Assembly: GCA_021798355.1 (NCBI GenBank)
Contig: JAJZMG010000049.1
Location: 1-34,426, forward strand
Direction of reading: 5' to 3'
Length of the DNA stretch: 34,426 bases
Source of the DNA: Nanobdellota archaeon
Lineage (GTDB): Archaea; Nanobdellota; Nanobdellia; Parvarchaeales; Parvarchaeaceae
The notes beneath the pieces were generated by a model. The model saw only the letters and a program-made list of their open reading frames with translations, did no database searches and was not told the origin of the DNA. The translations under genes and the position numbers were made by a program. Shown piece after piece: positions 1,864 to 31,333 of the stretch (positions are counted from its first letter, which is position 1; the number at the start of each line of letters is the position of its first letter).

Positions 1864-2229
1864 ATGCTAAATATAGCTTATACTGTAATATTTGCTGTGC
1901 TTTTTATAGGAGGAGTTGTAGGCTCAATATTTTCAGGCGTAACTTTCTTTGCTATATTCAAACATAGAAAAGACAAGGCCCCCTTAACATCTTTCTTTCT
2001 AAACAGAGATTTAGCTACAAAGGAGTTAAACATGTTTATATACCCCGGTTTAATGCTTTTTTTGACAGGCCTTTTTACATTTGTCCAGAAAATCCTTAAC
2101 AATTATCCTTTGTTATACAATATAAATCAGATTTTCTTCTACCTTGCGTATCTTTTTGGAATAGCTGCATTGTTTGTTGTTGTATACATATCTTTTCGCT
2201 GGTTTAAACTTTTTAGGAGGTTTATATGA
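1864..2229 (+). CDS. Small multi-TM membrane protein, KHRxDKAPL family (copy 1, gene A)
   Basis: Hydrophobic helices with conserved FKHRKDKAPLTSFFLN and C-terminal FRRFI, shared with 3143-3487. Stop overlaps the next start (ATGA). Confidence 0.8.
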   Translation: MLNIAYTVIFAVLFIGGVVGSIFSGVTFFAIFKHRKDKAPLTSFFLNRDLATKELNMFIYPGLMLFLTGLFTFVQKILNNYPLLYNINQIFFYLAYLFGIAALFVVVYISFRWFKLFRRFI

Positions 2230-2531
2230 ATACAGATTTTTTATATGGTGTAATTTTATTTGTTCTGGGCTCTTTAATTCTTTTCTTTGTACTAGTTTTA
2301 AGGAAAAAGCTGAATAAAAATCCCACTTTATTTTTATCTTCATTTTACATTAAAAAATACAAACAATATGCTTTTGTATTATTCTTTTTGACTACTTTAA
2401 TTTTAGTGACAAATTATGGGATAACCACGGTTGTTTCATTAAGTAATCCTGCAACTCTTATCTGGGAATATGGTAACATCATATTGTTTGCTACTCTTGC
2501 CTTATTTTTCCTATTTATGTCTCAGTCCTAA
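2226..2531 (+). CDS. Small multi-TM membrane protein (copy 1, gene B)
   Basis: Starts in the ATGA overlap after AGGAGG; hydrophobic helices; positional and junction similarity to 3484-3801. Confidence 0.75.
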   Translation: MNTDFLYGVILFVLGSLILFFVLVLRKKLNKNPTLFLSSFYIKKYKQYAFVLFFLTTLILVTNYGITTVVSLSNPATLIWEYGNIILFATLALFFLFMSQS

Positions 2532-2974
2532 AAATCGTTGAACACTTTTGTTTCATTTTCACTTGATGGATTACTTCTGTCCGCACTAAATACTTTATAA
2601 CTCCTCGGTTTTAACATAGAAACAATATAGTCAAATGCAAGTGAAGGATTACTTTCATTTCCGCAGGAGTATATATCTACTGTAGCGTATCTACTTTCAG
2701 GCCAGGTATGCAGTGATATATGGCTTTCAACTATCAATGCTATTATAGATACCCCACCTATGTCAGGAGAGTTTATAGTGTTGAATTGTCTTTCTAATAT
2801 ATCAATTATGTGGAGATTACCTGCTCTGGAAGCTTCTATTACAGACTCTTTTAAGTATATCATATTTTTAAGGATAGAATCCTCAATGTCATAAAGATTT
2901 CCAAAAACGTGCTTGCCAATTACAGGGGTTAAGTTACCTTCAAACAAACCCAATTTTTTACTTCTTTTTCTCAT
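2528..2974 (-). CDS. speH: S-adenosylmethionine decarboxylase proenzyme (prokaryotic class)
   Basis: GGVSIIALIVESHISLHTWPESRYATVDIYSCG: ES cleavage site giving pyruvoyl-Ser, plus conserved His and Cys. Confidence 0.93.
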   Translation of the reverse strand: MRKRSKKLGLFEGNLTPVIGKHVFGNLYDIEDSILKNMIYLKESVIEASRAGNLHIIDILERQFNTINSPDIGGVSIIALIVESHISLHTWPESRYATVDIYSCGNESNPSLAFDYIVSMLKPRSYKVFSADRSNPSSENETKVFNDF

Positions 2975-3098
2975 TGATTATTATTGAATACTTCCATTTA
3001 AATAATTATCTACTTAGTGTAGTTAAATTTGGTAAGTTCGTGTAGAATTCCTTTTTTGTAAGAACAATATACACAAGAGATAGGGAGTTCGCTTTAAA

Positions 3099-3129
3099 AT
3101 AGGCACCGAAAACTATTTTATATGCCTAT
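3099..3129. promoter_or_regulatory. Inverted repeat flanking the putative TATA box of the 3143 gene
   Basis: ATAGGCA-(17 nt containing ATTTTATA)-TGCCTAT; TATA about 25 nt before ATG 3143. Confidence 0.5.
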
Positions 3130-3142
3130 CGCTTACTAATTT

Positions 3143-3487
3143 ATGCTTTACGAAAATTTCCATTTTTATTGGATATTGTTTGAGACTATAAATGGTTTAA
3201 TCGTCTCAATTTTAAGCGCTTTTGATATATACATACTATACAAACATAGAAGCGATAAAGCTCCATTAGTAAGGTGGGCTTTAAATGAAAAAGCATCTAA
3301 GAATAACTTTTCCATTCTTTTGACAGCGTCTATCCTATTCATAGTTATATTTGTAGTCTATTCTTGGGGCTCAGTGGTAAATAATACCTCTATTAAGATC
3401 ACGGCTGAGCTAATAGGCACGTTTACATATTTAATGGTAAGCTATGTGATAGTAAATTGGTCAAGGATATTTTTGAGGTTTATATGA
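3143..3487 (+). CDS. Small multi-TM membrane protein, KHRxDKAPL family (copy 2, gene A)
   Basis: LYKHRSDKAPLVRWALN ... SRIFLRFI, paralogous to 1864-2229; ATGA overlap with the next gene. Confidence 0.8.
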   Translation: MLYENFHFYWILFETINGLIVSILSAFDIYILYKHRSDKAPLVRWALNEKASKNNFSILLTASILFIVIFVVYSWGSVVNNTSIKITAELIGTFTYLMVSYVIVNWSRIFLRFI

Positions 3488-3801
3488 ATAGCGGATTTTA
3501 TGAGGCAATTGTAATTGGAGTTATAGGCATGATGATAACTGTTTCAGTAATAAAATTCATGAAAGTTTTTTATAGCAGCCCTTTAAAATCGGTCCAGCTT
3601 ATACGACTTAATAAAAATTCAGTTAGGGTATTTATTATTTTTTTGTCTATGAATTTTATATTTTTATTAGGTTACTTACTGCAGTATTTTAACTTTTTAG
3701 ACAATTCCGATTTATTGGCAATATTAGTATATGCTTTAGGAACCTCTTTTTTCTTTTTGTCACTTGCAAGGATACTCTCTACAAAGTACAAAATGAATTA
3801 A
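3484..3801 (+). CDS. Small multi-TM membrane protein (copy 2, gene B)
   Basis: Start trimmed to ATG 3484 (MNSGFYEA...), which preserves the ATGA coupling seen in copy 1. Confidence 0.75.
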   Translation: MNSGFYEAIVIGVIGMMITVSVIKFMKVFYSSPLKSVQLIRLNKNSVRVFIIFLSMNFIFLLGYLLQYFNFLDNSDLLAILVYALGTSFFFLSLARILSTKYKMN

Positions 3802-9041: not shown

Positions 9042-9443
9042 ATGATACATTCTGTAATTGAAACATATTATCCTGGTAAGTGCAATATAGGGCAGGAGGA
9101 AATAAAGAAAAGATATAAAGCAGGATTGGCTGGTTTTATTATATTTGTAATATTCCTAATTTTTCTTTCGGTCTTTAAATTAAATTACTTGTTTTTTATA
9201 CTGTTAGCATTTCCATTATTTCTGGGTTTTATTGGGTTTTATCAGGGATACAAAAGATTCTGTGTTGCAAATGCTGTTACTGGACTTTATGTTTTTTCTG
9301 ATAATAAAAAAGGTTCAATAAAAGATAAAATCGCACACAGAATCGACTTAAAGACGGCAGTAATTTTAATTACCTACTCGTTTATATCTGCGGCAGTGGT
9401 TACAATGATAATAACTTTAATCGCTTATTATTGGTTAATTTAG
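9042..9443 (+). CDS. Small membrane protein, unknown
   Basis: Paired hydrophobic segments at each end; basic cytoplasmic-type loop. Confidence 0.7.
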   Translation: MIHSVIETYYPGKCNIGQEEIKKRYKAGLAGFIIFVIFLIFLSVFKLNYLFFILLAFPLFLGFIGFYQGYKRFCVANAVTGLYVFSDNKKGSIKDKIAHRIDLKTAVILITYSFISAAVVTMIITLIAYYWLI

Positions 9444-9456
9444 CATTCTATATTTT

Positions 9457-9474
9457 TTAGGTTAATTTACCTAA
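9457..9474. promoter_or_regulatory. Inverted repeat TTAGGT-TAATTT-ACCTAA
   Basis: Lies between the 9042 gene stop and the glycerophosphodiesterase start; could be an operator or terminator-associated. Confidence 0.35.
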
Positions 9475-9545
9475 CAAACACGAGAGAAGAAAATCCCTTC
9501 ATTACAGTTAGATAGCATTAAATTCTTTAAAGTACTGAAATTGGA

Positions 9546-10277
9546 ATGGATATGCCCTTAGTTTATGGACACAGGGGTGCGGCAGTAGAAGCTCCTGAAA
9601 ATACTTTGCCTTCTTTTAAACTTGCCGAAAAACTTGGTGTTTACGGTGTAGAAATGGACCTGCATACTAGTAAGGATGGGGAGTTAATTGTTATACATGA
9701 TGAAACCTTAGATAGAACAACCAATGGCAGAGGTTTGGTCCATTCATATAACCTGAAGGAGATTAAAAAGCTTGATGCAGGCTTTAAGTCCGGTAACAAA
9801 TGGGTGGGAACAAGAGTGTCTACATTAAGAGAAGTATTTGAAGGATTGGGAAGGATAAATTATTATCTAGAGATAAAACAGAGTTCAAAGGTTTACCCCG
9901 GAATCGAGGAAAAAATGTTGAATTTAATAGATGAGTTCAATCTTAAGAGCAATGTTCAGGTAATATCATTTGATTTTGATTCTTTGGAAATAGTAAGGAA
10001 GTTAGACAAAAAAATCAAAACTGGTTTGCTTTATATAGGCAAGTCTTCTTGGTTTATCAGTATCGCTAAAAACCTTAAAATCAATTTTTTGCAGCCAGCA
10101 TTTAACTTAGTTTATAAGGAGGATATAGAAATTGCTAGGAAAAACGGCTTTAAGGTGGCGGCTTGGACAGTAGATACTCCAGAAGACATAAAAAGGGCAA
10201 TAGATCTAAAAGTAGACAGCATAACCTCAAATAATCCAAGACTCGTACTGCGTACACTTAAAAAGTATGCAAAATAA
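9546..10277 (+). CDS. glpQ: Glycerophosphodiester phosphodiesterase
   Basis: GHRGAAVEAPENTLPSF, GVEMDLHTSKDGELIVIHDETLDRTTNGRG, YLEIK, AWTVDTPEDIKRAIDLKVDSITSNNP. Confidence 0.95.
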   Translation: MDMPLVYGHRGAAVEAPENTLPSFKLAEKLGVYGVEMDLHTSKDGELIVIHDETLDRTTNGRGLVHSYNLKEIKKLDAGFKSGNKWVGTRVSTLREVFEGLGRINYYLEIKQSSKVYPGIEEKMLNLIDEFNLKSNVQVISFDFDSLEIVRKLDKKIKTGLLYIGKSSWFISIAKNLKINFLQPAFNLVYKEDIEIARKNGFKVAAWTVDTPEDIKRAIDLKVDSITSNNPRLVLRTLKKYAK

Positions 10278-29210: not shown

Positions 29211-30638
29211 ATGGATAAGGAGAAAATTAGCTCATTTTTTAGACCTTTAACAGATTTAATGCACGATCAGTACATAAACTATGTTCCCTCTTACGGGAAC
29301 AGCTTCTTTTTTACGATAGGAATATACCTGTTGGAAATATTTGTGATATTGGCTATAAGCGGCATGATAATGCTAATTTTCGGGCCGTTTTGGTGGGACA
29401 CTACAGCAATAGGAACCTTTTTTAGAAGCATCCACCTTTGGGCAGCAGAAGCGTTCGTGACCTTGATGTTTATACATTTATTTGTAAATTTTTCAACATC
29501 TGCATTTAAAAAGAAAAAACTTGTATGGATGATTGGCAGCGTAATATTATTTTTAGTACTAATAGAATTTGCATTTGGGATAGGTGTTCAGGGAGGTTTG
29601 CTTTCGCAGTGGAATGATAAAGCTGGAGCGGACCTATGGAACGGCCTTGGATTAGGGTTTTGGGTTAACCCTTTAAATCAAGGAGCGGTTTTAGGTTGGC
29701 ATGTAGCAATTATCCCCATACTGCTTCTTTTATTGATATTTATGCATTATTCTTTGGTAAAAAAAGACGGATTAAGCAAGCCTTATAGAAAAGATATACC
29801 CTACAAAATGGTAAAGGCGGACCATAAAAAGATGTACAGAAGAATGATTTACATATTTATAATAATTATGGTATTTGCATTCGTATTCAGTTCTCCGTAT
29901 ATAGCGCCGTTAACCATAAGCCAAGCTGCAAACTCTAACCCTTCCGGAATTGCAACAACTCTGCTGCAGGAGTTTAATTATTCGTCAACCACTGCTACTT
30001 ATATGGACACTATAGACCCGTATACTTTTAGTACCAGAACGGTCTACTTTACCATTCCATATTCTGCTTATGTGGTTCTTACCAATAAAACAAATGAACT
30101 TTCAACCTTTTTAAATGAGAATTCTTCACAGCAAAATAAGCAATTTATACAGGCGTATGATTACTTCAGTAATAATGGCTCAATTTCCACCGCAGTAAAC
30201 TCCCAGAACCCGCTTATATCTGCAACGGCAAGCTTAACTAAAATGGCTGAATCTGGAGGATATCAACTGGTTATACAAAATGAGAGCAGTAGCGGCCTTG
30301 ATGAAACTTACGTCTTAAGGTTTTTGTATGATAGCGGGGCATTGACAAAGGCAGCAACCAAGGACGGTTTAAGAACTGCCCAGTGGGGAATGCTAAGAGT
30401 AGGTTCACCCCCTTGGTCTATACAGTATTGGTTAATCCCATACAATGCACTTGAGATAACAACTGCCAACATACCTTGGTGGAATGACTTAGAAAATGGG
30501 ATTATAGCAATGATTGTGTTCCTTATTCTGCTATTGTTACCATTTATACCTTACTTAAATGAACTGCCAGACAAACTCAAACTTTACAAGCTATTTTGGA
30601 ATAAGTACACGAATCCAGAGATGAGGAAGAAAAAATAA
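29211..30638 (+). CDS. Cytochrome b (b6-like) with large extracytoplasmic insertion
   Basis: Heme-ligand pairs IHLWAAEAFVTLMFIHLF (Hx13H) and WHVAIIPILLLLLIFMHY (Hx14H); PPWS at the Qo-motif position; C-term FIPYLNELPDKLKLYKLFW. Confidence 0.88.
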   Translation: MDKEKISSFFRPLTDLMHDQYINYVPSYGNSFFFTIGIYLLEIFVILAISGMIMLIFGPFWWDTTAIGTFFRSIHLWAAEAFVTLMFIHLFVNFSTSAFKKKKLVWMIGSVILFLVLIEFAFGIGVQGGLLSQWNDKAGADLWNGLGLGFWVNPLNQGAVLGWHVAIIPILLLLLIFMHYSLVKKDGLSKPYRKDIPYKMVKADHKKMYRRMIYIFIIIMVFAFVFSSPYIAPLTISQAANSNPSGIATTLLQEFNYSSTTATYMDTIDPYTFSTRTVYFTIPYSAYVVLTNKTNELSTFLNENSSQQNKQFIQAYDYFSNNGSISTAVNSQNPLISATASLTKMAESGGYQLVIQNESSSGLDETYVLRFLYDSGALTKAATKDGLRTAQWGMLRVGSPPWSIQYWLIPYNALEITTANIPWWNDLENGIIAMIVFLILLLLPFIPYLNELPDKLKLYKLFWNKYTNPEMRKKK

Positions 30639-30691
30639 TAGTGACTTACAGGTTACTTACCATTTATAAATGCAAAAAACCTATAATAGTC

Positions 30692-31333
30692 ATGGGATTT
30701 GTGGATGAACTGGCACTGGAATTGTTCTTCGTTGCCTTTTCAGGGTTCTTATTAGATTATACCGTCTTGGCTATGTACAGAGATTATAGGGCCAGGTATA
30801 TAAATAAATCCAATTCAAAATTAAGTATAGAATCGCACCTGCAGAATTCAATTTATATGTTTGCAGCTATAGCTGTTTTCATTTTAGTAATGGGCTTTTA
30901 CGGAGAAGTAACTTGGAATTTACCCGGCGCATATGACTTATTATTCTATGATCCGTTTATAATGGCAGGAATACTTGCATTAGGATTTGTGTTGTCAGTT
31001 AAATATAACCAGAAGCTACAGTATGTCGGATTGGTTGCTTTATTTATGGGGCTAGTACTGATAGAATACGGCGTATCGGGTTATAATTTAGGTTACACTA
31101 GCTCTCCTTTAGCATTACTTGGATTGTATACTGCATTTGGAATAGCAGGCATATTTGCATACCCGACGGCTTTAGTTCTCGATAAATATAGGGAGAATGG
31201 CAGCAACAAGCCATTAAGCAGAAACTGGATTATATTCATTTTAGTGTTCTTGATTTTCTTGACTTTGGGATCTATACTTGCAGCTTACATCGGAGCGGTA
31301 GCCGTCCCAGCACATCTTGCGGCACCTCCTTAG
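30692..31333 (+). CDS. Multi-TM membrane protein, possibly DUF981-like
   Basis: Several TM helices; FYGEVTWNLPGAYDLLFYDPFIMAGI resembles what I recall of DUF981. GTG at 30641 is an alternative start. Confidence 0.7.
   Translation: MGFVDELALELFFVAFSGFLLDYTVLAMYRDYRARYINKSNSKLSIESHLQNSIYMFAAIAVFILVMGFYGEVTWNLPGAYDLLFYDPFIMAGILALGFVLSVKYNQKLQYVGLVALFMGLVLIEYGVSGYNLGYTSSPLALLGLYTAFGIAGIFAYPTALVLDKYRENGSNKPLSRNWIIFILVFLIFLTLGSILAAYIGAVAVPAHLAAPP

Follow-up and report, generated by a model that had tools for sequence, protein, structure and literature searches.

Overlapping gene pairs for small three-helix membrane proteins in Ca. Parvarchaeota

Two A-B pairs beside the closest described systems

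In the paired SMR systems of the EbrA/EbrB type, two adjacent genes encode small membrane proteins that are homologous to each other and form a heteromer, and SdhC and SdhD, two small adjacent proteins of three TMs each, make up a heterodimeric anchor. Here, we describe two adjacent genes for small membrane proteins, A and B, whose organization is of this known kind and which are best read as an undescribed, lineage-restricted family of paired membrane proteins. The overall explanation that we favor, and consider probable, is that A and B are a coupled 1:1 pair, likely heteromeric, that may serve as a membrane anchor or adaptor.

The window, the whole stretch of DNA analyzed, is a 34,426-bp contig (C22) of a 700-kb draft genome that is 87% complete. 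The features discussed here are as follows:

1864..2229, + strand: A protein copy 1 (A1), 121 aa, three TMs, KHRKDKAPL...LN, C-terminal FRRFI; deep A clade II
2217..2232, + strand: copy 1 junction, GAGGTTTATATGAATA, with an SD-like GAGGT within the Arg-Phe codons of A and an ATGA stop/start
2226..2531, + strand: B protein copy 1 (B1), 101 aa, three TMs; its start overlaps the A1 stop (ATGA)
2528..2974, - strand: speH (AdoMet decarboxylase), convergent with copy 1; a positional neighbor outside the system
3143..3487, + strand: A protein copy 2 (A2), 114 aa, three TMs, KHRSDKAPL...LN, C-terminal RFI; deep A clade I
3475..3490, + strand: copy 2 junction, 16 nt identical to copy 1
3484..3801, + strand: B protein copy 2 (B2), 105 aa counted from the ATG at 3484, three TMs
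9443..9546, + strand: pair-free site between a 133-aa gene (9042-9443) and a glycerophosphodiesterase gene (9546-10277)

All four ORFs lie where the initial annotation had placed them, both A proteins carry the motif and RFI end that it had described as shared, and the 16-nt identity of the two junctions can be read directly from the sequence. Judged by their alignment, A1 and A2 are homologous (25% identity, E = 2e-11 in BLASTP); B1 and B2 show weak pairwise similarity (E = 0.008) and are clearly one family by profile.

The AlphaFold models of A (mean pLDDT 93.5; helices 2-34, 40-47, 49-78, and 82-113) and B (mean pLDDT 87.9; helices 3-31, 33-42, 44-68, and 75-99) have the same helix order: TM1, a short helix, an Asn, TM2, and TM3. 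Each protein would thereby consist of three transmembrane helices and a short amphipathic cytosolic helix that ends at an Asn cap, and A and B may assemble into a six-helix heteromer. The positive charges of both proteins sit in loop 1 and at the C-terminus, which suggests an N-out/C-in orientation. Residues K34, H35, D38, A40, P41, L47, N48, W106, F110, R112, and F113 are conserved in A, and B, or else a partner in the cytosol, probably makes contact through the KHRxDxAPL-x4-LN motif on the cytosolic side and the C-terminal WxxFxRF.

A and B are probably ancient paralogs, as their shared helix layout and an hhalign comparison suggest. The comparison gave 80% when the A gene of locus L118 was left out and 83% with a smaller curated set; the reversed control gave 3%, but the best of 20 window-shuffled controls reached 79%, nearly the real score, so the homology is only suggestive.

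No credible match for any A or B protein was found in Pfam, NCBIfam, or PADLOC, or for the A proteins in PHROGs. A PDB sequence search returned no relative of the family, and Foldseek gave nothing significant against the PDB (A and B) or BFVD (A). Squid rhodopsin matches (E 0.09-0.28) reflect composition and topology only. A viral origin was set aside, given the BFVD result and a search of viral contigs with the KHRxDxAP pattern that yielded no relative. Among open-licence papers, we found no described Parvarchaeota family of such a kind. The initial annotation had recognized no known family, and these sequence, structure, and viral searches bear it out; a match of A to a characterized family, the outcome it had named as contrary, was looked for and did not occur.

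The likeness to paired SMR proteins lies in the adjacent small membrane protein genes. SMR proteins have four TMs and a conserved membrane Glu, whereas A and B have three TMs in confident models and no conserved column of charged TM residues; the SMR profile matched neither protein in Pfam or NCBIfam. SemiSWEET and PQ-loop proteins are closer in having three TMs, about 90-115 aa, and the same presumed topology, but they are encoded by one gene, whereas A-B is a gene pair and presumably heteromeric. Unlike SdhC/SdhD, A-B occurs in scattered copies and matches no family. No succinate dehydrogenase genes were seen beside the pairs examined (ORF listings with genes named by eye), and neither A nor B has a conserved TM His of the heme-ligating kind found in SdhC/SdhD; the sole conserved His lies in the cytosolic KHR motif. 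Weak matches to oxidase subunit II (NCBIfam CoxB in five members, E = 0.01; PDB 6kob_B, E = 0.063) accompany the presence of cupredoxins beside one subfamily (S4, see below), but A has no cupredoxin domain, and the catalytic oxidase subunit, COX1, was found in none of 30 genomes of the class. The reading of A as the subunit II hairpin of a cytochrome or quinol oxidase was dropped because the PDB alignment is in the wrong register, setting TM1 of A on the second helix.

Several of these likenesses would suit a small heteromeric transporter or channel resembling EbrAB or SemiSWEET, in which two parallel homologous three-helix halves enclose a path through the membrane: the protein size, the overlapping gene pair, the parallel 3+3 TM topology, and the probable A-B paralogy. 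SemiSWEET is also among the non-significant Foldseek matches of both A and B. However, those matches have E values of about 5-9, TM-scores of 0.29-0.44, and an rmsd near 10 Å or worse, which is no match to the fold, and neither the SMR, Fluc, and SWEET families nor the PQ-loop profile was matched in Pfam. The single NCBIfam PnuC match concerns one member (E = 0.0026). With no conserved charge in the TMs, ion-coupled transport is disfavored, though a channel would be compatible; taken together, we regard a transport function as unlikely, and the anchor or adaptor reading is preferred.

Distribution and inheritance of the pairs

The genome contains five A and five B genes by profile, every one in an adjacent pair, and while two of the pairs lie in the window, contigs C29, C12, and C26 carry one apiece. 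About 80 A genes were found in total, all from one archaeal family (Ca. Parvarchaeota) and largely from acidic sites. Strong matches are confined to this one taxonomic family and three genera, with 21 positives among 280 genomes of the class and nine true positives in a 371-genome sample of the phylum; out-of-family A matches in three genomes (G050, G129, and G346) are partial and near threshold and were taken as noise. Named relatives in the collection are MAGs that carry the label Ca. Parvarchaeota or Nanoarchaeota archaeon, and the names of the isolates point to acid mine drainage or comparable acidic habitats.

Genomes that have the family carry 1-7 pairs. Of 28 genomes placed in the genus, 11 lack it, some of them 98-100% complete, and it is hence dispensable. 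Some of the family-negative genomes may be only remotely related, their TrpRS being 35-37% identical, but this does not hold for G014, G006, and G016 (63-73%), so the group has indeed seen loss or gain. In five genomes of genus g1 (G004, G005, G011, G012, and G015), TrpRS identity does not exceed 35-37%, which reflects either a replaced TrpRS or a deep split in the genus.

B lies directly downstream of A in 77 of 80 cases (59 by direct B match, 77 after weaker loci were read and a wider B profile was applied). The three remaining A matches are a 53-aa fragment in G001 and two from a tandem A-A-B locus in G028, where a B-like ORF follows the second A. A and B are thus supported as a genetically obligate pair, and the genetic part of the obligate pairing proposed in the initial annotation stands; A and B occurring mostly apart was looked for among the 80 A genes and was not seen. 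At the G028 locus (G028:C35:5642-6726, L139), two A genes precede a single B, an arrangement seen at no other locus. At G009:C5:42229-42830, an A gene with in-frame stops lies next to an apparently intact B, and this is a decaying pair.

The A family comprises at least eight subfamilies, and with midpoint rooting the two copies in the window are members of its two deepest clades, so the speH neighborhood joins two old paralogs. A local or recent duplication around speH, as the initial annotation had envisaged, was rejected in view of this deep split and of the occurrence of speH without pairs; most pairs, moreover, lie elsewhere. Both pairs accompany speH in most genomes that have it, one pair does so in G008, G010, and G017, and none in four congeners (G006, G014, G016, and G021). 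Since speH can be present without pairs, its position is incidental, the one of two options in the initial annotation that held; the other, a link between speH and the pairs, did not.

Pairs are present or absent at defined sites. The site TrpRS - CopG-like - PAPS reductase lacks a pair in G009 and holds one in G002, G003, G025, and G026, and in G006 the order SOD - speH - Bcp - EndoIII is found without pairs. In relatives (loci L123, L124, and L128-L130), a pair of subfamily S6 sits at the site equivalent to window positions 9443-9546, where there is none here. A and B are shown to be inherited, and gained or lost, as one unit. The membrane protein encoded ahead of this site in the window (9042-9443) is 133 aa long, has a CNIG motif, and matches nothing in Pfam. 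Its gene directly precedes the S6 pair in several relatives, with a few bases of overlap or gap, and because it abuts A there it may be a third member of the S6 unit.

Such patchy, multi-copy, and site-specific presence would also be explained by a selfish or conflict module of two genes, of the toxin-immunity or holin-antiholin-like type, and five members have weak PHROG holin matches (E = 0.033). We nevertheless consider this improbable. In either copy, A and B are real membrane proteins with a dN/dS of mostly 0.03-0.25, which places them under purifying selection, and each copy has long been conserved at the same site. A and B also resemble each other in size and topology, as most toxin-antitoxin pairs do not, and the PADLOC and viral-contig searches described above were negative.

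The A-B junction and probable translational coupling

The ATGA overlap is found in 55 of 68 unique A-B pairs, a set that leaves out two L118 entries (tandem A-A-B locus), and GAGGT-like SD sequences are located in the last codons of A. Because the same layout recurs throughout this set, the likeness between junctions goes beyond chance. The 16-nt identity in the window is no sign of recent copying, since it combines an SD-like GAGGT over conserved Arg-Phe codons with the shared stop/start. A purely nucleotide (SD) origin of the RFI end was rejected in part: the terminal Arg codon of RFx is AGG in 40 of 49 cases, and the nine with AGA or CGA retain Arg-Phe, so a protein motif is conserved beside the nucleotide signal.

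Overlapping start/stop pairs, and their coupling via termination-reinitiation, are known from archaea (PMC6728339). By the same route, B would be translated by termination-reinitiation after A, and the two proteins would thereby be made in 1:1 amounts. Many paralogous pairs share this one junction design, so the family offers a clean way to ask whether obligate heteromers go together with coupled translation. One divergent junction is seen on contig C26 of this genome (G000:C26:839-1282, locus L137), where an A of subfamily S5 continues for 27 codons beyond the RF that normally closes A and shares 68 nt with B; its relative in L149 differs in this, and a frameshift or an assembly error is possible.

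The histories of A and B agree closely. Patristic distances of the two trees correlate at r = 0.91, against at most 0.11 after permutation. Of the 42 A splits with support, 30 recur in the B tree, as do 31 of 39 in the reverse direction. Adjacency and congruent trees can also come from linkage alone, but that A and B are independent small membrane proteins held together by their operon, with no complex, is hard to credit when the two genes retain one order, mostly with coupled starts, across eight or more subfamilies located at unlinked sites, and when A without B is nearly absent and an intact B next to a broken A was seen once (G009:C5).

A tentative role and the redox neighborhood of S4

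A and B probably act as a heteromer, and its most likely role, which we put forward tentatively, is that of a membrane anchor or adaptor subunit, with paralogs serving different membrane processes. At least one of them may serve a membrane redox module, as suggested by subfamily S4, whose A has an extra N-terminal TM and which shares a conserved operon with two cupredoxins and DoxX. The order cupredoxin - cupredoxin - DoxX - A - B - MscS is found in this genome and two others:

S4 operon: G000:C12 (locus L136:4065-7398), L078:3301-7578, and L079:3174-7576; cupredoxins membrane-anchored

The cupredoxins were called from Copper-bind/SoxE matches near the cut-off together with the YLCPIPGHAELGMYG motif. 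In L079, the operon is followed by a gene with an oxidoreductase molybdopterin domain.

Other neighborhoods are mixed. The pairs in the window adjoin Bcp and SOD, with SOD beside a pair in another genus too (L134), and the pair in G022 adjoins an oxidoreductase with a molybdopterin domain. The C29 pair is near TauE and FKBP, the C26 pair is near SufS/NifU, and other copies adjoin PAPS reductase, FtsZ, or GDPD genes. A redox theme across the family is possible, based on one subfamily and an impressionistic view of the neighbors. More doubtful is the broader idea of an undescribed class of heteromeric membrane modules, made of two diverged copies of one three-helix fold and expanded to 1-7 paralogous pairs in a single family of ultrasmall archaea, in which each pair would serve a different partner process, at least one of them as a membrane part of a blue-copper/DoxX electron-transfer operon.

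Reduced DPANN genomes rarely keep expanded families, and the expansion of A-B pairs, which belong to no current family, in genomes of 0.4-0.9 Mb therefore marks something from which these cells benefit. A search for COX1 in 30 genomes of the class, 18 of them from the genus, found none, with positive controls. The S4 operon ties the family to membrane redox chemistry in archaea in which no heme-copper oxidase gene was found here. In the window, a cytochrome b gene (Cytochrom_B_N_2) adjoins a gene for a DUF981 membrane protein (29211-31333), in a genome in which no COX1 was found.
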